From NCBI RefSeq assembly GCF_003287285.1, contig NZ_QMIG01000010.1, forward strand, positions 62,001 through 126,000: a stretch of 64,000 bases of DNA, written 5' to 3'. Made by a program: the position numbers and the translations under genes. The notes under the pieces are model-generated. The model was not told the DNA's origin and did not search any database. It saw only the letters and a program-made list of their open reading frames with translations. The number at the start of each line of letters is the position of its first letter. Within the stretch, counting starts at the first letter, position 1. This stretch comes from Phytoactinopolyspora halophila. GTDB lineage: Bacteria > Actinomycetota > Actinomycetes > Jiangellales > Jiangellaceae. This document shows positions 47,420-64,000 of this stretch, piece after piece.

Positions 47420-48268
47420 TCAAGCGAGACGGGAGATGGCGGATATCGCCCCTCGCAGCACCTCTCGTACGCGATGAACGTTCTTCTCGAAGACCTCGAA
47501 GACGGTTTCCTGGGTGACGGGCTCCACACCGGGAACGCCTTCCAGCCCCGCGTCGTAGTCGGTGACGAGAGCGACGCCGGCGAACCGAATACCCGCCTCC
47601 ATGGCCAGGGCGGCTTCGGGGTATTGGGTCATGTTCACCACGTCCCAGCCGTTGGCGCGGTGCCACGCCGACTCCGCTCGGGTGGAGAACCGGGGACCGT
47701 TGGTGACGACGACGGTGCCGCTGTCGTGTACCGAAACGCCTGCGGTGGCGGCGGCCTCGACGAGGACGCGGCGCAGCCCGGGATCGTAGGGCTCGGCGAA
47801 CGGGATGTGCCGTGGCCCGTCGTCGAAGTGATCGTAGAACGTGTCGGCTCGCCCGGTGGTGCGGTCGACGAGCTGGTCGACCACGACGAACTCGCCAGGG
47901 CGGATGTCAGGTCGAAGGGAACCCGCCGCAAACGGAGCGAGAAGTGCCCGTACTCCCAGCTGGCGCATGGCGTCGATGTTGGCCCGGTAGTTCACCCGAT
48001 GCGGCGGTAGCGTGTGGCCGGTGCCGTGCCGTGGCAGAAAGGCGACACGCACGCCGTCGACGGTGCCGATGGTGGCCGGAGCCGAGGGCGTGCCCCATGG
48101 CGTATCCAGCTCCACCGATCCGGCATCGTCGAGGAACGTGTAGAAGCCCGAGCCACCGAAAACACCGATCGCAGCATGGGCCGTGGCGGGGATGTCGTCA
48201 CGGGCCTCGTGCTGGATCTCGTCCTGGCCGGTGTGCGCCGTCCGCGGCTCTCGTGGCTGATCGGTCAC
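47420..48268 (-). CDS. mtnP: S-methyl-5'-thioadenosine phosphorylase
   Basis: 282 aa. GVFGGSGFYTFLDD is the phosphate loop, LPRHGTGHTLPPHRVNYRAN near residue 84, GPRFSTRAES near 198 and NMTQYPEA near 218 complete the active site. It cleaves methylthioadenosine to adenine and methylthioribose-1-phosphate. GAGGAGG lies 7 bases before GTG 48268, so that start is chosen over the ATG at 48295. An MFS gene follows on the same strand. Confidence 0.95.
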   Translation of the reverse strand: MTDQPREPRTAHTGQDEIQHEARDDIPATAHAAIGVFGGSGFYTFLDDAGSVELDTPWGTPSAPATIGTVDGVRVAFLPRHGTGHTLPPHRVNYRANIDAMRQLGVRALLAPFAAGSLRPDIRPGEFVVVDQLVDRTTGRADTFYDHFDDGPRHIPFAEPYDPGLRRVLVEAAATAGVSVHDSGTVVVTNGPRFSTRAESAWHRANGWDVVNMTQYPEAALAMEAGIRFAGVALVTDYDAGLEGVPGVEPVTQETVFEVFEKNVHRVREVLRGAISAISRLA

Positions 48269-48349
48269 GCTGATCCTCCTCGCGTCGGTTGTCATCGCGG
48301 ATCCCGGCGTGTTCGCCGGGCGGGTGCCGGTCGGTTCGCGCCTTCCGGG

Positions 48350-49000
48350 TCAGGGAGATGCGCGCAGCTGGGCGCGCATGTCCCTGATGGCCTGAACCGT
48401 GCCGCGGACGGTGCCCGTCACTTTACTGTTGCCGATGCGCGGGCGGTACGGAACCGTTCGTTCGACGATTCGCCAGCCGGCATGGCCCGCGCGCAGAACC
48501 ATCTCCAAGGGCCAGCCCGACCGCCGGTCGGCGATGTCCAGGGCGATGAGCGCCTCCCGCCGGGCGGCGCGCATCGGGCCGATATCGCTGACCCGCGCTC
48601 CGCAGTTCCGCTGGACCTGGTGTGCCAGGTACCGGTTGGCAATCCGGACGTGGGGCGGAAGGGCGCCACTCGCGGGCTGCCGCGCGCCGAGTGCGAGATC
48701 CGCGGCTCCCGTGGTGATCGGCTCGACGACCACGGGGAGGTCGCGGGGGTCGAGCGAGGCATCGCAGTCGAGGAAGCAGACGACCGGGGCCGTCGCGGCG
48801 GTGAGGCCGGCGAAGCACGCCGCGCCGAATCCGCGACGCCCCTCGTGGATCACGCGTGCACCGCAGGCGGCGGCGACGTCCGCCGAGCCGTCACTGGAGC
48901 CGTTGTCGACGAGGATCGGGTGGTAGCCGGGCGGTATCCGGCCGAGCACCCACGGTATGGCGTCCCGCTCGTCGAGCACCGGAAGGATCACGTCGATCAC
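48350..49000 (-). CDS. Glycosyltransferase family 2 protein
   Basis: 216 aa. VIDVILPVLDERDAIPWVLG is the GT-A start, followed by ILVDNGSSDGSADVAAACGA and the DxD-like motif VCFLDCDASLDP. The C-terminus has GYR-like GIRRAVPYR equivalents (VERTVPYRPRIGNSKVTGT) as in dolichyl-phosphate or polyprenol sugar synthases. No membrane spans. GTG at 49000 follows the end of the DUF2064 gene by 4 bases, so they are coupled. Confidence 0.9.
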   Translation of the reverse strand: MIDVILPVLDERDAIPWVLGRIPPGYHPILVDNGSSDGSADVAAACGARVIHEGRRGFGAACFAGLTAATAPVVCFLDCDASLDPRDLPVVVEPITTGAADLALGARQPASGALPPHVRIANRYLAHQVQRNCGARVSDIGPMRAARREALIALDIADRRSGWPLEMVLRAGHAGWRIVERTVPYRPRIGNSKVTGTVRGTVQAIRDMRAQLRASP

Positions 49001-49004
49001 GCGT

Positions 49005-49739
49005 TCACCCCGGGTGTGCTCGATACGAACTCGCGGCGCCCGCCGTTTCGGGTCGCATGCCGATCCCGCTCCGGCCGGCGTGCTGGCGGGCAGCCAGGTG
49101 AGCATCGCCGATCGAGTCGACCGCCGTGGCCGTGTGCGAGCCGGGAATGAGCGCCGCGATGGCGCGGGCGTCGTCGGCATCGTCGAGATCGCGCAGCGTG
49201 CGCATGGTGCGCACGGTCATCCCCAGCGAGCGCAGCCGTGCGGCCTGTGCCCGAGCGGTGTACTGGCTGCTCATCGGTACGCCATGAAACATCTGGGACA
49301 GGACACCGGGATCCCGCTCGCTTGCCGCGATGGCCCACCAGCCGCCGTCTTCGGCCGGTCCCAGGGCCGCGTCGGCGGGTCCGGGCAGAACCGTGGCGAG
49401 CGAATCGTGGATCAGCTCGGCGGTGATCTGGGGGGTGTCCATTCCGATCTGGATGCCTGGGCCACCGGCGTGGGCCCAGGCGGCGGCAAGGCGCTCGTTG
49501 AGCGAGCCACTGACCTGGTGAACGATCTCGAATCCGGACGGCAACCATGGTCCCGGCTGCCCATCCAGGGCGAGGATGCGCCGGTCGACGTCGCATCGGG
49601 CGATGGTCTCCAACGTGTCGGCCAGCGCAGCCGTGGCGATCTCCGTGGCTTCGACGGCCGAGTAGCGGGGGCAGAGCCTGGTCTTGGCGTACCCGGGCAC
49701 GGGTGCCTTGGCGAGGACAAGAACGTGCGACATGGCCAT
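49005..49739 (-). CDS. TIGR04282/DUF2064 glycosyltransferase-like protein
   Basis: 244 aa. HVLVLAKAPVPGYAKTRLCP is the nucleotidyl/glycosyl-transferase start, IQIGMDTPQITAELI near residue 97 and LGPAEDGGWWAIA near 127 are the DUF2064 hallmarks. Family members transfer sugars in arsenosugar or related pathways and often stand beside a GT2 gene, as here. ATG 49739 and ATG 49733 are both possible. Confidence 0.9.
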   Translation of the reverse strand: MAMSHVLVLAKAPVPGYAKTRLCPRYSAVEATEIATAALADTLETIARCDVDRRILALDGQPGPWLPSGFEIVHQVSGSLNERLAAAWAHAGGPGIQIGMDTPQITAELIHDSLATVLPGPADAALGPAEDGGWWAIAASERDPGVLSQMFHGVPMSSQYTARAQAARLRSLGMTVRTMRTLRDLDDADDARAIAALIPGSHTATAVDSIGDAHLAARQHAGRSGIGMRPETAGAASSYRAHPG

Positions 49740-51916: not shown

Positions 51917-53287
51917 ATGCGCCGCGCGGGTGCTGTCGCGCGCCGGGTCAGGTCCCGAGCGCGCTGGTGGCCCCGGCTGGACCGGCGAACGGTGCTCGTC
52001 CTCGCTGGATGGGCCATCCTCCTCGTCGCCGTCCGGCTGCTGGGACTGTATGTAGCCGCCACTCGTGAGGGGGACCTGAAACTCGGCGCCATCCCGCTGT
52101 ATGGCACCTGGGACTGGGCGCTGACCTGGGGGTTGCTCGCACCGGTGGTGGCCGGTGCCGGGTTGGTGGCCTGGTTGCCCTGGCTGTGCCGCAGCTGGTC
52201 CTGGCGGAGCGTGCTGGCCGCGACCGCCGGTGCGGGCGTGGTGTTCAGCCTCGCACTGGCGCTCGCCGAGACGCACGGCAGCGTGTGGTTGGATATCCAC
52301 AACAACTACGCGCGCTACATCACGTTCGTCGACGACGCTGGCGTCGGGCCGTTTCTCGACGGCTACACGCAACGCCAGCTCGTCACCGACCAGCCGGTGC
52401 ATCTGCGATCGCACCCGCCGGGCGTGTTGCTGTTCTTCTGGGCTGCCGCCCGCGTCGGGCTGGACGGTCCGTGGTTCGAGAACGCCACGGCGATGGTGGC
52501 CGTGGCGGTGGCGATCGTCGCGGCGCTGGCGATCCTGCGCGACGTCGCCGGTGAACGTCGCGCCCGGGATGCGGCGCCGTTTCTGGTGGCCGCTCCCGCG
52601 GCGGTGTGGCACACGAACGCTGACGTCCTTTTCGGCGGGGTGGCCCTGGCCGGTGTCGCATGTCTGATCCTGGCGACCAGCCGGACCAGCGGAACCGGGC
52701 GATCGGCGATGCTGTACACGCTGGGCGGTGGGTTGCTGGCGGGCATCGCCCTGCTGCTGTCGTTCGGTGTCGTGTTGCTGGCGATCCCCGTCGTGGTGAT
52801 CGCCGTGTGGCGGCACCGGCAGGGGTTCCGCGCCGCATGGTGCGTCGTGGCGGGTGGCGTCGTCGCGATCACGGTGGTGTTGCTTCCCGCGGTGTGGGGC
52901 TACTGGTGGCTCGACGGGTTCGAGGCGACACGCGAGCGATACCACGGCGGCGTGGCCAGCGTGCGGGGGTACTGGTACTTCGTGCTGGCCAACGTGGCGG
53001 TGTTCGCGTTGGCACTCGGGCCGGCGATCGCCGTGGCGCTGGCCCGCCTGCGTGACCTGCGGGTATGGCTCGTTGCCGGATCCGGGCTCGCCGTCGTGGC
53101 GGTGGCCGATCTGTCCGGTATGTCGTCCGGCGAGACCGAGCGGATCTGGCAGCCGTTCATGCCGCTGGTGCTGCTCGCCGGTTGCGCTCTGGGGCGAGAA
53201 CGCCCCCTCGCGGACGTGCGTGGCTGGGTGGCAGTGCAGGTGGTGGTCACCGTGGCGCTTGTCGCGGCGTTGCGGGTGCCGTGGTGA
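51917..53287 (+). CDS. Polytopic membrane protein, GT-C glycosyltransferase-like
   Basis: 456 aa with about ten or eleven spans. After a basic N-terminus the first span is VLVLAGWAILLVAVRLLGLY. An extracytoplasmic loop reads TDQPVHLRSHPPGVLLFFWA near residue 152, which recalls the mannosyltransferase/ArnT-like GT-C group. It is 13 bases after the kinase gene and 28 before the epimerase. A polyprenyl-linked sugar donor is likely but not shown. Confidence 0.7.
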   Translation: MRRAGAVARRVRSRARWWPRLDRRTVLVLAGWAILLVAVRLLGLYVAATREGDLKLGAIPLYGTWDWALTWGLLAPVVAGAGLVAWLPWLCRSWSWRSVLAATAGAGVVFSLALALAETHGSVWLDIHNNYARYITFVDDAGVGPFLDGYTQRQLVTDQPVHLRSHPPGVLLFFWAAARVGLDGPWFENATAMVAVAVAIVAALAILRDVAGERRARDAAPFLVAAPAAVWHTNADVLFGGVALAGVACLILATSRTSGTGRSAMLYTLGGGLLAGIALLLSFGVVLLAIPVVVIAVWRHRQGFRAAWCVVAGGVVAITVVLLPAVWGYWWLDGFEATRERYHGGVASVRGYWYFVLANVAVFALALGPAIAVALARLRDLRVWLVAGSGLAVVAVADLSGMSSGETERIWQPFMPLVLLAGCALGRERPLADVRGWVAVQVVVTVALVAALRVPW

Positions 53288-53315: not shown

Positions 53316-54353
53316 ATGCGCGTGCTGGTGACGGGTGGTGCCGGATTCATCGGCAGCCATGTGGTGGAGCAGCTGGTCGAGCAGGGAGCCGAGGTCGTCG
53401 TGCTCGACTCGCTCGCGGCACACGACGCCCCTCCGGAGTACCTGCCGCCCTCGGTGGACATGCGCGTCGCCGACCTGCGTGACGAGGAGGCCGTCCGGCG
53501 GGCGGTGGGAGACGTCGACGCCGTGAGCCACCAGGCGGCACGGGTCGGCCTGGGTGTCGATCTCGACGACGTCACGGCCTATGTGGCCGACAACGATGCC
53601 GGCACCGCTGTCCTGCTGCGAGCGCTGTGGCGCCGTTCGTTCCGGGGCCGGCTCGTCGTGGCGTCGTCGATGGTGGTGTACGGCGAAGGGCGGTACCGAT
53701 GCTCGCGCCACGGTGACGTGCTCGCTGGGCCCCGACTGGCCGAAGACCTGGAACTGGGGCGATTCGAGCCGCCGTGCAGCCGCTGTGGTGCCCCGCTGTC
53801 CTGGGCGCCGGTCGGCGAGGAAGCGCCAGTCGATCCCCGTAATGTCTACGCCGCGACGAAGGTTCACACGGAGCAGCTCGCCGCCGTCTACGGTCGCGAG
53901 AGCGGTTCCCCGGTGTGCGCGTTGCGGTACCATAACGTGTACGGGCCGCGAATGCCCCGGGACACGCCATACGCGGGGGTTGCCAGCATCTTTCGCAGCG
54001 CTGTCGAGTCCGGCAGGGCTCCGCGCGTTTTCGAAGACGGCGGGCAGATGCGAGACTTCGTCCACGTCCACGACGTGGCCCGGGCGAACGTGCTCGCGCT
54101 GAACTCATCGTGGCAGGGCGCGTGCAATGTCGCCAGTGGACAGCCGCGCAGTGTCCACGACATGGCGCGTGCCCTGAGTGGATGCGGCGAGGGTGCTGAT
54201 CGGCCGGCGCCCGTCGTCACCGGGGAGTTCCGGCTGGGCGATGTCCGGCATGTGGTCGCGTCGCCGGCGCGGGCCGCCGAAGCGCTCGGTTTCGAGGCCA
54301 CGATAGGTTTCGAGGAGGGAATGGCTGCATTCCGGAACGTACCGTTGCGCTAG
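53316..54353 (+). CDS. NAD-dependent nucleotide-sugar epimerase with Cys-rich insert
   Basis: 345 aa. MRVLVTGGAGFIGSHVVEQL binds NAD; the catalytic Ser is in VVASSMVVYG, and the Tyr-Lys pair is NVYAATKVHTE near residue 178. Between them an insertion carries C129-x2-H132 and C154-x2-C157, a possible zinc site. The pattern is like nucleotide-sugar 4-epimerases such as dTDP-rhamnose epimerase. Start ATG 53316 has AAGGG 9 bases ahead. It belongs to the glycosylation cluster. Confidence 0.9.
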   Translation: MRVLVTGGAGFIGSHVVEQLVEQGAEVVVLDSLAAHDAPPEYLPPSVDMRVADLRDEEAVRRAVGDVDAVSHQAARVGLGVDLDDVTAYVADNDAGTAVLLRALWRRSFRGRLVVASSMVVYGEGRYRCSRHGDVLAGPRLAEDLELGRFEPPCSRCGAPLSWAPVGEEAPVDPRNVYAATKVHTEQLAAVYGRESGSPVCALRYHNVYGPRMPRDTPYAGVASIFRSAVESGRAPRVFEDGGQMRDFVHVHDVARANVLALNSSWQGACNVASGQPRSVHDMARALSGCGEGADRPAPVVTGEFRLGDVRHVVASPARAAEALGFEATIGFEEGMAAFRNVPLR

Positions 54354-60939: not shown

Positions 60940-61206
60940 ATGGCTAAGGTGACGCTGCGGTACTGGGCAGCGCTTCGTGCGGCAGCAGGTGTGGCCGAGG
61001 AGACGTTCGACGCCACCACCCTGCATGAGGCGCTGGCCGCGGCACGGGCCGAACACGGTGAAGACTCCCGGTTCGCGGCAGTATTGAGCATCTGCACCGC
61101 CGTCGTCGACGAGACGCCTGCCGGCTCGCAAGATCCGGTCCTCGTTCCCGTGTCCGAGGGATCCGTTATCGAGTTGCTCCCGCCGTACGCGGGTGGCGGA
61201 GGCTGA
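60940..61206 (+). CDS. MoaD/ThiS-family sulfur carrier protein
   Basis: 88 aa ubiquitin-like fold: [20 protein letters not shown] at the start and [13 protein letters not shown] at the end, with the C-terminal Gly-Gly that becomes a thiocarboxylate. It could supply sulfur for molybdopterin or another sulfur-containing product. An ATG at 60931 is an alternative start. It is divergent from glnR and followed 105 bases later by the DoxX operon. Confidence 0.9.
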
Positions 61207-61311: not shown

Positions 61312-61857
61312 ATGACGGTGGACACGGCGAGCACGGTGGAGCCTCGCGAGCCGCTGGCGAGCTCGCGATCGAGCATCTGGCTGCTGGCTGCGGCCCGAAT
61401 CGGCGTGGCGCTGATGTGGATCGACAACGCGTCGTGGAAGCGACCACCGGAATTCGGCCGGGGCGAAGAGCCGCGAATGCTCTACGCCTGGACGCTGACG
61501 GGCGTGGAACACGAGGTCTTCGCCCCGTATGCGTGGCTGCTGGACAACGTCGTCCTGCCGAACTTCACCTTCTTCGGGTGGGCGGTGCTGATCGTTGAAG
61601 CATCGCTCGGCGCCTTCTTGTTCATCGGCCTGCTGACCAGGGCGTGGGCGCTCATCGGCATGGCGCAAACGGCCGTCATCGCGCTGTCGACGCTCAACGC
61701 GCCACACGAGTGGTACTGGGCCTACCTGCTGATGTTCCTGGTCCATCTCATGCTGTTCGCCACCGCAGCCGGACGTTATGGGGGATTGGACGGCGTACTG
61801 CGCCCGATCTGGCGGCAGGCGGGAAGGCTTACGCCCCTGTTGGAGAAGGCGTCATGA
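61312..61857 (+). CDS. DoxX-family membrane protein
   Basis: 181 aa with four spans. [20 protein letters not shown] and LYAWTLTG with [20 protein letters not shown] resemble the DoxX/DoxD type proteins of thiosulfate:quinone oxidoreductases. It could pass electrons to or protect a quinone pool. Its stop overlaps the next gene's start (ATGA). Substrate unknown. Confidence 0.75.
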
Positions 61858-62264
61858 ACGAACGTTCCTGTCGCAGGGCGTGCCTGGCGCTGGGATCGGC
61901 GTCGGTGGCCAGCGTGGTCTTCGTCGTCGAGGGTCTCGGCGACTTCCGGTTCATGCGGGTGAGCGGAGCCGCGCTGGTGATCGCGCTGGTAGCCGGTGTG
62001 CTGGCCATGTCGGCCGGTGGGTTCGCGCGCGCATGGCCGGCTGTCACGGCAGGCATCGGTTTCGTGGGGGCCGCCGTATTCCAGGTGATCTCGGTTGCCA
62101 TGGGCCGCGACTGGTTGGGCGCCAGCCTCAGTACGGCGTCGTTCTGGCTGGGGCTCGGTGTCGGCCTCATCGTTGTCGGCTGCGCGCTATCCGCCACGCG
62201 TACCGGTCACGACGGACGTGCCAGACACGACGGACGAGAGAAGGAAGAGCATGGATCTAGCTAG
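61854..62264 (+). CDS. Small membrane protein of unknown function
   Basis: 136 aa with four membrane spans (about residues 11-28, 35-55, 62-82 and 92-115) and a basic tail RARHDGREKEEHGSS. No family was recognised. It is translationally coupled to DoxX upstream and overlaps the acyl-CoA dehydrogenase gene by 14 bases, so all belong to one operon. Confidence 0.7.
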   Translation: MNERSCRRACLALGSASVASVVFVVEGLGDFRFMRVSGAALVIALVAGVLAMSAGGFARAWPAVTAGIGFVGAAVFQVISVAMGRDWLGASLSTASFWLGLGVGLIVVGCALSATRTGHDGRARHDGREKEEHGSS

Positions 62265-63387
62265 GGCACTTGAGCCCGTCCTCGACGCCGCGCGCGAGAA
62301 CGCCAGCGATGTCGACACCAACAGCCGGTTCCCGCACGAAGCGGTTGCCGCCTTGCGGGAAAGCGGCTTGTGCGGTTTGACCGTGCCGTCCGAAGCCGGT
62401 GGCATGGGCTGTGGGCCGGAGGAGCTCGTCACGGCGGTCGCCCGGATCGCGGCAGCCTGCGGTTCGACCGCCATGGTCTACCTGATGCACGTCAGCGCCA
62501 CCATGACAGTGGCCGCGGCGCCACCGAGTGGACAGCCGAAGCTGCTCGAACAGCTCGCTGACGGCACGGCGCTGGGCACGCTGGCGTTCTCCGAAACCGG
62601 CTCGCGGTCCCACTTCTGGGCGCCCACGTCCCAGGCTCGTGCCGACGGTGCCACGGTCGAGCTCGCGGCCCCGAAGAGCTTCGTCACGTCTGCGGGGCAC
62701 GCGGACGTCTACATCGTCTCTACGCTCCAGCCGGCGGCGACGTCCGCTGAGAGCCCGGGTGTGGACATTTACGCCATCCCCGGCGACCGGTCTGGAGTCA
62801 CGACGGCAGGATCCTGGCAAGGCCTGGGTTTGCGCGGCAACGCATCGGCGCCGATGAGGTTCGAGCTCGAAACCGGCGACGGGGACCGGCTCGGAGCGGC
62901 GGGCGGAGGCTTCGCGCTGATGCTCGAGGCCGTGCTGCCCTGGTTCAACCTGGGCAATGCCGCGGTGTCGCTGGGGTTCGCGAAGGCCGCGGTGGACGCT
63001 GCTATCCGCCACGCGTCGGGCGCACGGCTGGAGCATCTCGACGAGTCGCTGGCGCAGCTGCCCACCATTCGTGCGCAGCTGTCCCGGATGTCGCTGGATC
63101 TCGCCGCGACCGAGGCGTATCTCGGTGCGGCGGCCCGGAGCATCGCTGCGCCGGACGACGCGACGACGCTGCACGTGCTCGGTGCGAAGGCGTACGCCAA
63201 CGACGCCGCGCTGCGGATCACGGACGCCGCGATGCGGGTGTGTGGTGGCGCCGCCTTCTCCCACCACCTGCAACTGGAACGTTTCTTCAGGGACGCCCGG
63301 GCGGGGAGCGTCATGGCCCCCACCGCCGACGTCCTCTATGACCTCTATGGCCGGGCGCTCGCCGGGCTTGCGCTGTTCGAGAACTGA
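62251..63387 (+). CDS. Acyl-CoA dehydrogenase family flavoprotein
   Basis: 378 aa. An all-alpha N-terminus (HEAVAALRESGLCGLTVPSEA) is followed by a beta core with GTLAFSETGSRSHF near residue 110 and a C-terminal helical domain with VCGGAAFSHHLQLERFFRDA and PTADVLYDLYGR. The FAD and acyl sites are typical, but the position of the catalytic Glu is not clear by eye. AAGGAAG lies before the ATG. It is followed by a PhnD-like protein after 13 bases. The family includes oxygen-using monooxygenases of the DszC type, and those too may fit. Confidence 0.88.
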   Translation: MDLARALEPVLDAARENASDVDTNSRFPHEAVAALRESGLCGLTVPSEAGGMGCGPEELVTAVARIAAACGSTAMVYLMHVSATMTVAAAPPSGQPKLLEQLADGTALGTLAFSETGSRSHFWAPTSQARADGATVELAAPKSFVTSAGHADVYIVSTLQPAATSAESPGVDIYAIPGDRSGVTTAGSWQGLGLRGNASAPMRFELETGDGDRLGAAGGGFALMLEAVLPWFNLGNAAVSLGFAKAAVDAAIRHASGARLEHLDESLAQLPTIRAQLSRMSLDLAATEAYLGAAARSIAAPDDATTLHVLGAKAYANDAALRITDAAMRVCGGAAFSHHLQLERFFRDARAGSVMAPTADVLYDLYGRALAGLALFEN

Positions 63388-63400
63388 AGGGTTACCTGCC

Positions 63401-64000
63401 ATGGCCGAATCGCTTCTCGTCGGAGCCGTCGCCTACACCCCGAATATCGTGCTCATCTGGGAGGGCCTGCGCGACTATTTCGCCGACGGCCCGATCGAGA
63501 CGGACTTCGTGCTCTTCTCCAACTACGGGCGTCAGGTGGACGCGCTCCTCGATGGCACCATCGACGTCGCCTGGAACACGAACGTGGCGTGGGCACGCAC
63601 CGTCTTTCAGACGGATGGCAGGTGTCAGGCGCTCGCGATGCGCGACGTGGACGCCGCCTTCCAGACCGTATTCGTCACCCGAGCCGGCAACGAGTTCGAC
63701 GAGCTGGCCGACCTGCGTGGCCGGAGGCTTGCCCTGGGCTCCAGGGATTCCGCGCAGGCGGCGATCCTTCCCGTCCAGTACCTGCGCGACGCCGGGCTGG
63801 CGGACGGTGAGGTGGAATTCGTACGGCAGGAGTCGGATATCGGCAAGCACGGCGACACCGGGCGTAGCGAGCTGGATGCGATCCGGTTGCTGATGGACGA
63901 CGAAGCCGACGCGGCCGCGATCGGTATCAACACGTGGGAAGCTATCGGCCGCGAAGAGCTCATGCCGGGGGCACTGGCCGAGTTCTGGCGCTCGCCCCGG
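63401..64000 (+). CDS. PhnD/SsuA-type substrate-binding protein (3' truncated)
   Basis: 200 codons to the window end. LLVGAVAYTPNIVLIWEGLR opens a type II periplasmic-binding fold, and VDALLDGTIDVAWNTNVAWA and FVTRAGNEFDELADLRGRRLALGSR match PhnD-like phosphonate-binding proteins. No signal peptide or lipobox is visible at the start. It may therefore be cytosolic, or have another start. It closes, as far as seen, the DoxX-acyl-CoA dehydrogenase operon. Confidence 0.8.
   Translation, partial: MAESLLVGAVAYTPNIVLIWEGLRDYFADGPIETDFVLFSNYGRQVDALLDGTIDVAWNTNVAWARTVFQTDGRCQALAMRDVDAAFQTVFVTRAGNEFDELADLRGRRLALGSRDSAQAAILPVQYLRDAGLADGEVEFVRQESDIGKHGDTGRSELDAIRLLMDDEADAAAIGINTWEAIGREELMPGALAEFWRSPR

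Follow-up and report, generated by a model that had tools for sequence, protein, structure and literature searches.

We analysed a 64,000-nucleotide stretch of the Phytoactinopolyspora halophila genome (positions 62,001 to 126,000 of contig NZ_QMIG01000010.1; G000:C77:62001-126000 in our collection, from a 5.04 Mb assembly; hereafter the window) and found that the operon at its 3' end belongs to the catalogued but functionally unexplained Rv1678–Rv1681 gene set of Mycobacterium tuberculosis. The operon has five genes, encoding a DoxX/DoxD-like membrane protein, a second membrane protein, a flavoprotein with the acyl-CoA dehydrogenase fold, a cytosolic PhnD-fold protein and a radical S-adenosylmethionine (SAM) enzyme. 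The PhnD-fold protein and the flavoprotein have lost the hallmarks of transport and of dehydrogenation, respectively, the radical SAM enzyme has a domain derived from TusA, and relatives of the operon repeatedly adjoin genes of a methylthioxylose-type cassette. The operon is not a transporter, and we put at about even the chance that its genes encode a sulfur-linked module of cytosolic enzymes that serves a methylthio-pentose pathway; the reaction that we propose for it is conjectural.

The operon and its relatives

Four of the five proteins exceed the curated NCBIfam cut-offs for the Rv1678 (C-terminal part), Rv1679/FadE16, Rv1680 and Rv1681 families. Rv1678 is split here into two genes, one DoxX-like and one for the C-terminal part, and is a single fused gene in locus L067; against the thiosulfate:quinone oxidoreductase DoxD equivalog NF041179 the DoxX-like protein scores 22.6, below the cut-off of 300. 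An initial annotation of the window had described four genes that overlap or lie within 13 bases of each other, an operon cut at its 3' end by the window edge, and a PhnD-like protein lacking a signal peptide or lipobox. The coordinates were confirmed and are concordant with Pfam: the DoxX-like and membrane protein genes overlap by 4 bases, the membrane protein and flavoprotein genes by 14 bases, and a 13-base gap separates the flavoprotein gene from the PhnD-like start at 63401. Truncated at 64000 by the window edge, the PhnD-like gene reaches its stop at window-equivalent 64216 (L002 7217), where its 3' end is overlapped by the radical SAM gene, the fifth gene of the operon, which the initial annotation missed because the window ends before it. 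On extension downstream, where that annotation had proposed looking for ABC (ATP-binding cassette) genes, the stretch read past the window end held no ABC permease or ATPase; beyond the radical SAM gene, L002 encodes a protein without a Pfam match, a thioredoxin-like protein, a DUF4395 protein and a rhodanese, and no tRNA was found in this locus. Upstream, a ThiS/MoaD-like gene (60961-61206; Pfam ThiS, 24.4 bits) lies on the same strand, 106 bases before the operon. Our in-house gene caller, which uses codon-position GC, sometimes picks the wrong strand; gene lists beyond the named families are provisional.

The radical SAM protein has 282 relatives in our genome collection, of which we examined the best 80 as loci. 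By hand count, a PhnD-like gene stands beside the radical SAM gene in all 80, the flavoprotein gene is present in 72, and 68 have a DoxX match above 60 bits. Four of the eight loci that lack the flavoprotein gene (L091, L097, L132 and L135) extend far enough upstream to indicate a true absence or move; in L091, L097 and L135, DoxX lies immediately before the PhnD-like gene. The hosts are Actinomycetota, apart from two metagenome-assembled genomes (MAGs; L139 and L146), which we take to be Dormibacterota. Within the class of the window's host, the Rv1680 cut-off is exceeded in 8 of 296 genomes; in a ninth, G028, the copy (L061) scores below it and has broken frames in both the PhnD-like and the radical SAM genes.

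Linkage to methylthioxylose-type cassettes

Methylthioxylose caps M. tuberculosis lipoarabinomannan and is used in diagnosis. At 47.4-54.4 kb of the window, 7 kb upstream of the operon, lies a methylthioxylose-type cassette (Table 1). According to an excerpt of PMC8780516, Rv0539 is MtxS, which makes lipid-linked methylthioxylose, and Rv0541c is MtxT, which transfers methylthioxylose to lipoarabinomannan. We used the window's cassette proteins as queries against the flanks of the 80 loci (up to 8 kb per side, many contigs being shorter) and against 20 control regions from ten genomes carrying the operon family. At least one cassette gene was found in the flanks of 20 of the 80 loci, and at least two in 15, compared with 0 of the 20 control regions; by gene, DUF2064 was linked in 17 loci, the family 2 glycosyltransferase (GT2) in 12 and methylthioadenosine phosphorylase (MTAP) in 3.

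The 15 linked loci come from Glycomyces, Phytoactinopolyspora, Streptomyces, PHSC20C1, a Propionibacteriaceae MAG, Agromyces, Arthrobacter, Mycolicibacterium and Candidatus Aeolococcus, and their gene orders differ. In L057 the order is GT-C, GalE, DoxX, Rv1678 C-terminal part, flavoprotein, PhnD-like and radical SAM, contiguous on one strand; L139 has MTAP, GT2, a membrane protein, flavoprotein, PhnD-like and radical SAM genes in one cluster; L209, likewise a single cluster, runs flavoprotein, PhnD-like, radical SAM, GalE, GT2 and DUF2064; and in L138 (Mycolicibacterium pyrenivorans) the cassette flanks the operon on both sides. G099 (L193; Mycobacterium by inference) carries the same cassette genes in the order Rv0535–Rv0541c, which we take to be that of M. 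tuberculosis. Outside the window's class, a single operon at L217:1924-10470 contains genes for MTAP, a methyltransferase, a different radical SAM protein, GT2, DUF2064, a DoxX-like protein, the flavoprotein, the PhnD-like protein and a MetE-like protein.

Co-occurrence was assessed as raw genome counts, with relatedness ignored. A strong MtxS-like match (at least 250 bits, hand count) is present in 127 of the 296 class genomes and in all nine that carry the PhnD-like gene; in five of these nine (G000, G004, G007, G062 and G099) the two genes lie at most 20 kb apart. Among 29 further genomes with the operon family, 23 have an MtxS-like match (at least 200 bits), the exceptions being G512, G505, G535, G309, G339 and G308. 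For operons of the window's own kind, hereafter type A, the match was found in 19 of 20 genomes (the nine from the class, nine of ten in the family of G175, and G603).

Several observations weigh against a role for the operon in this pathway. The flanks of 60 of the 80 loci contain no cassette gene. Of the 127 class genomes that have MtxS-like genes, about 118 are without the operon, and therefore the cassette does not need it; the five cassette genes by themselves suggest a complete route from methylthioadenosine to a lipid-linked pentose. The type A genome G308 is without a strong MtxS-like match, and five of the nine class positives come from the window's own family and so are not independent. 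In addition, the TusA cysteine is gone from the radical SAM proteins of type A, as described below.

Table 1. Genes of the operon and of the upstream cassette, in window coordinates.
Feature	Position	Strand	Basis
DoxX/DoxD-like membrane protein, N-terminal half of Rv1678-type protein	61312..61857	+	Pfam DoxD 29.4 bits (cut-off 22.7)
Membrane protein, C-terminal half of Rv1678	61854..62264	+	NF049986 85.7 bits (cut-off 50)
Acyl-CoA-dehydrogenase-fold flavoprotein, Rv1679/FadE16 family	62251..63387	+	NF049984 645.9 bits (cut-off 600)
Cytosolic PhnD-fold binding-protein-like protein, Rv1680 family	63401..64000, continuing to window-equivalent 64216	+	NF049985 496.1 bits (cut-off 400)
Radical SAM protein, Rv1681 family	window-equivalent 64210-65235 (L002 7211-8236)		NF049973 508.3 bits (cut-off 380)
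Methylthioadenosine phosphorylase (MTAP)	47420..48295	-	48% identical to L060 MTAP, which passes NF005876
Family 2 glycosyltransferase, MtxS(Rv0539)-like	48365..49000	-	Profile match E 8.7e-98 at G000:C77:110365-110997; 72% identical to L057
DUF2064 (TIGR04282/CofC-like) nucleotidyltransferase-fold protein	49005..49739	-	Pfam DUF2064 66.6 bits
GT-C-type membrane glycosyltransferase, MtxT-like position	51974..53284	+	65% identical to L057 gene; Pfam PMT_2 22.5 bits, below cut-off 26.1
GalE-like epimerase	53316..54350	+	77% identical to gene directly upstream of operon in G004/L057

A flavoprotein without the usual catalytic base

All three acyl-CoA dehydrogenase Pfam domains (N-terminal, middle and C-terminal) were found in the flavoprotein. 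At the position that we take to hold the catalytic glutamate in solved dehydrogenases, all 82 sequences have Ala356, inside an invariant VMAP, and at what is presumably the alternative base position of isovaleryl-CoA dehydrogenase Phe232 is invariant, by reading of the alignment. We rejected canonical fatty-acid oxidation because the catalytic glutamate is missing, and on these residues an ordinary role in beta-oxidation appears unlikely. Further NCBIfam matches, well below cut-off, include acryloyl-CoA reductase, 3-sulfinopropanoyl-CoA desulfinase and SfnB.

A TusA-derived domain and sister operon types

The CX3CX2C motif is invariant in 38 of 38 radical SAM proteins (Pfam radical SAM, 91.3 bits), and the N-terminal domain of the enzyme matches a TusA-like set by HH profile comparison (94.6%, E 6.5e-8), a set that holds one outlier row (L210), entered in the wrong frame. 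Pfam TusA itself is over cut-off only for a stand-alone protein in L187. The active-site cysteine of TusA is absent from type A radical SAM proteins, so sulfur transfer by the TusA-derived domain is unsupported for the window's own protein; radical SAM proteins of types B and C, which occur in the family of G175 (Nocardioidaceae), keep a conserved cysteine at the position taken for it. Type B operons (G175, G380 and G416) combine the radical SAM enzyme with a fused Rv1678 protein, an exported TIGR04553 lipoprotein (family shown for G175) and ABC genes (permease shown by Pfam in L186), and in type C (for example L187 and L191) DoxX/Rv1678, a stand-alone TusA and a DsrE protein adjoin the radical SAM enzyme.

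In a further, diiron variant, the place of the radical SAM part is taken by an AurF-like domain fused to a TusA-like one (in P0001, AurF scores 31.5 bits and TusA 17.6, below cut-off). For sulfur or selenium chemistry, it is unusual that a TusA domain is fused to a radical SAM enzyme and that the latter is exchanged for a diiron enzyme. Operons with the flavoprotein and PhnD-like genes and such a TusA-like/AurF-like fusion instead of the radical SAM gene were seen in L062-L065 and L210-L216. In L215, selA-, selB- and selD-like genes adjoin the diiron-type operon (by reading of the proteins; SelD by cut-off), and at L064:12422-15760 a formate dehydrogenase in two open frames with a gap, which looks like a selenocysteine enzyme, has a cysteine desulfurase and the diiron-type operon as neighbours.

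Alternative roles in sulfur, selenium or housekeeping metabolism

The alternative that survives best, although we consider it somewhat unlikely, is a general sulfur redox or scavenging module (for thiosulfate, sulfinate or persulfide) with no specific tie to a sugar cassette. It accommodates the DoxD-like protein in the operon, the distant matches of the flavoprotein to 3-sulfinopropanoyl-CoA desulfinase and SfnB, the TusA and DsrE proteins of sister operons, and the TlpA-like, CcdA-like and ArsR-rhodanese genes near 6, 5 and 5 of 95 loci, respectively, but it leaves unexplained the repeated contiguity with MTAP, GT2, DUF2064, GalE-like and GT-C genes. MerA-like genes near 6 of the 95 loci and heavy-metal ATPases near 5 of the 80 are mostly weak matches or scattered.

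We consider it unlikely that the operon is instead a selenium-handling module, in which the wider family would take up selenium and hand it by way of TusA/DsrE-type carriers to an enzyme. Selenophosphate synthetase (SelD) exceeds its cut-off in all 11 diiron-variant genomes and all 6 of type B or C that were tested, compared with 81 of the 296 class genomes (G628, which is without this radical SAM protein, is excluded from the type classes); it lies about 6-30 kb from core genes in G512, G173, G380, G416 and G274 and is present in the window's genome, and the type B lipoprotein belongs to the 'putative selenate' family TIGR04553. However, SelD was found in only 7 of 14 type A genomes tested and is absent from G004, whose operon is joined to the cassette, and selenium is therefore not a requirement of type A; it may be relevant to the sister variants. 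To our knowledge M. tuberculosis is also without SelD, which we count against the selenium alternative.

A purely housekeeping link, in which MTAP near the operon recycles the 5'-deoxyadenosine released by radical SAM enzymes, is very unlikely: it would fit the presence of MTAP near several radical SAM operons, yet GT2 and DUF2064 are linked more often than MTAP, and in L211, L214 and L216 (probably one lineage) MTAP also lies close to operons of the diiron variant, which yields no 5'-deoxyadenosine. The initial annotation had suggested a cytosolic small-molecule-sensing or redox pathway, an interpretation that is partly supported; the match to Rv1678–Rv1681 and the cassette 7 kb upstream in the window had escaped it. 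Redox chemistry holds in outline, with a flavoprotein, a DoxX/DoxD membrane protein and a radical SAM enzyme; sensing finds no support, and we rejected a sensor reading, as the operon encodes no regulator (a two-component pair is present in the upstream cassette, not in the operon).

A PhnD fold outside transport

The complete PhnD-like protein matches Pfam Phosphonate-bd at 99.1 bits, and its closest solved structures are PhnD1 and PtxB. It has no export signal or lipobox, and the 60 in-frame codons upstream of 63401 contain no hydrophobic stretch; the start position is equivalent in relatives, and in the predicted structure of the Phytoactinopolyspora endophytica orthologue (mean predicted local distance difference test score 92.7) the first strand begins at residue 5. 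By contrast, the type B sister operons encode binding lipoproteins.

PhnD1 binds phosphate through Tyr44, Ser124-Thr125-Ser126, His156, Asp203 and Tyr204, as given in part of PMC10284923. By sequence-profile alignment, not coordinate superposition, only Tyr42 and Ser117 of these pocket residues are kept in the PhnD-like protein. The threonine is replaced by Ala118 (45 of 46 sequences) and the serine by Gln119 (34 of 46) or His119 (12 of 46), Asp203 becomes His203 (46 of 46) and the capping tyrosine Cys204 (45 of 46); the residue preceding the motif is Asp116 in 46 of 46. The oxyanion-motif histidine is out of register in the alignment, with an invariant His150 nearby. Four divergent diiron-type PhnD-like proteins also keep the Asp-Ser and His-Cys pairs. 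On contig C74 the genome has its own PhnCDE, with a lipoprotein PhnD, an ATPase and a PhnE-type permease pair (PhnD and ATPase by reading of the proteins).

It is highly improbable that the operon encodes an ABC importer of phosphonate, phosphite or sulfonate with a binding protein that only appears to lack a signal, through an annotation error, for although the fold, with PhnD1 and PtxB as best solved matches, and the structure-based annotation of Rv1680 as a 'putative phosphonate transporter component' (in the available part of PMC8562490) favour it, there is no in-frame signal, the pocket motif is replaced, no ABC genes adjoin and a complete, separate PhnCDE lies elsewhere in the genome, and we reject a transporter, as the initial annotation had leaned towards doing.

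Proposed function

If the operon does serve a methylthio-pentose pathway, the substrate, step order, electron flow and product might be as follows. Working partly in the cytosol and partly at the membrane, the module would have as its substrate a pentose that bears sulfur, or a precursor of it, made by the cassette from methylthioadenosine. The radical SAM enzyme could abstract hydrogen from a sugar or nucleotide intermediate; the PhnD-fold protein, with His203-Cys204 in its pocket, may hold or convert a small substrate; the flavoprotein might oxidise or oxygenate the substrate without the usual glutamate base; and the DoxX/Rv1678 membrane protein could exchange electrons with quinones. These individual assignments are guesses, each of them unlikely at best. 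Precedent for such chemistry comes from AbmM, which, as an extract of PMC12691670 relates, swaps sulfur for oxygen in the ring of a pentose using its own iron-sulfur cluster, and from AbmJ, for which a D-ribo to D-xylo change is proposed in the accessible text of PMC9032320. In a broader form that we advance only tentatively, as a possibility well short of even, the family would be a new type of chalcogen enzyme system: a radical SAM (or diiron) enzyme based on a TusA carrier domain, a flavoprotein lacking the usual base and a binding-protein fold in the cytosol would together place or modify sulfur, or selenium in variants, on a pentose destined for the cell surface.

What is new here is that the operon is linked to the methylthioxylose cassette and to sulfur carriers of the TusA/DsrE type. 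Our search of the PMC literature, with most subscription papers outside its scope, returned no proposal of function for the gene set as a unit and no link to methylthioxylose; PMC5499769, in the portion available, covers only the neighbouring rv1676/dsbF region and the regulator Cmr. Rv1678–Rv1681 are unexplained M. tuberculosis genes, known by gene number only, and, if the broader form of the proposal is true, they would be an unrecognised part of methylthioxylose biology, in M. tuberculosis as elsewhere. The genomic linkage of the two sets opens a direct and cheap test in harmless relatives. It also gives reason not to list Rv1680 among phosphonate transporter components or efflux genes, as is done in PMC8562490 and PMC12195134.

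Comparison with known systems

In the futalosine pathway, cytosolic enzymes with a binding-protein fold (MqnA/MqnD) stand beside radical SAM enzymes (MqnE/MqnC) and a nucleosidase; the protein families differ from those of the operon, and the likeness is one of analogy. Among albomycin biosynthesis enzymes, AbmM is a structural match of the radical SAM model in Foldseek, where it ranks 12 at about 20% identity, with BlsE and SkfB at the top; we know of no TusA domain in AbmM or AbmJ. With PhnD1 and PtxB the window's protein shares the fold and Tyr42, but it is cytosolic, the STS motif has become SAQ and the capping Asp-Tyr has become His-Cys. The window holds the MTAP, MtxS-like, DUF2064, GalE-like and GT-C genes of the Rv0535–Rv0541c methylthioxylose capping cassette, in a different order, its own cassette being known from genes alone. 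The closest counterpart is M. tuberculosis Rv1678–Rv1679(FadE16)–Rv1680–Rv1681, with which the operon has all four protein families in common; in the window, however, Rv1678 is represented by two genes, and the cassette lies 7 kb from the operon, whereas the gene numbers of the two sets in M. tuberculosis are far apart.

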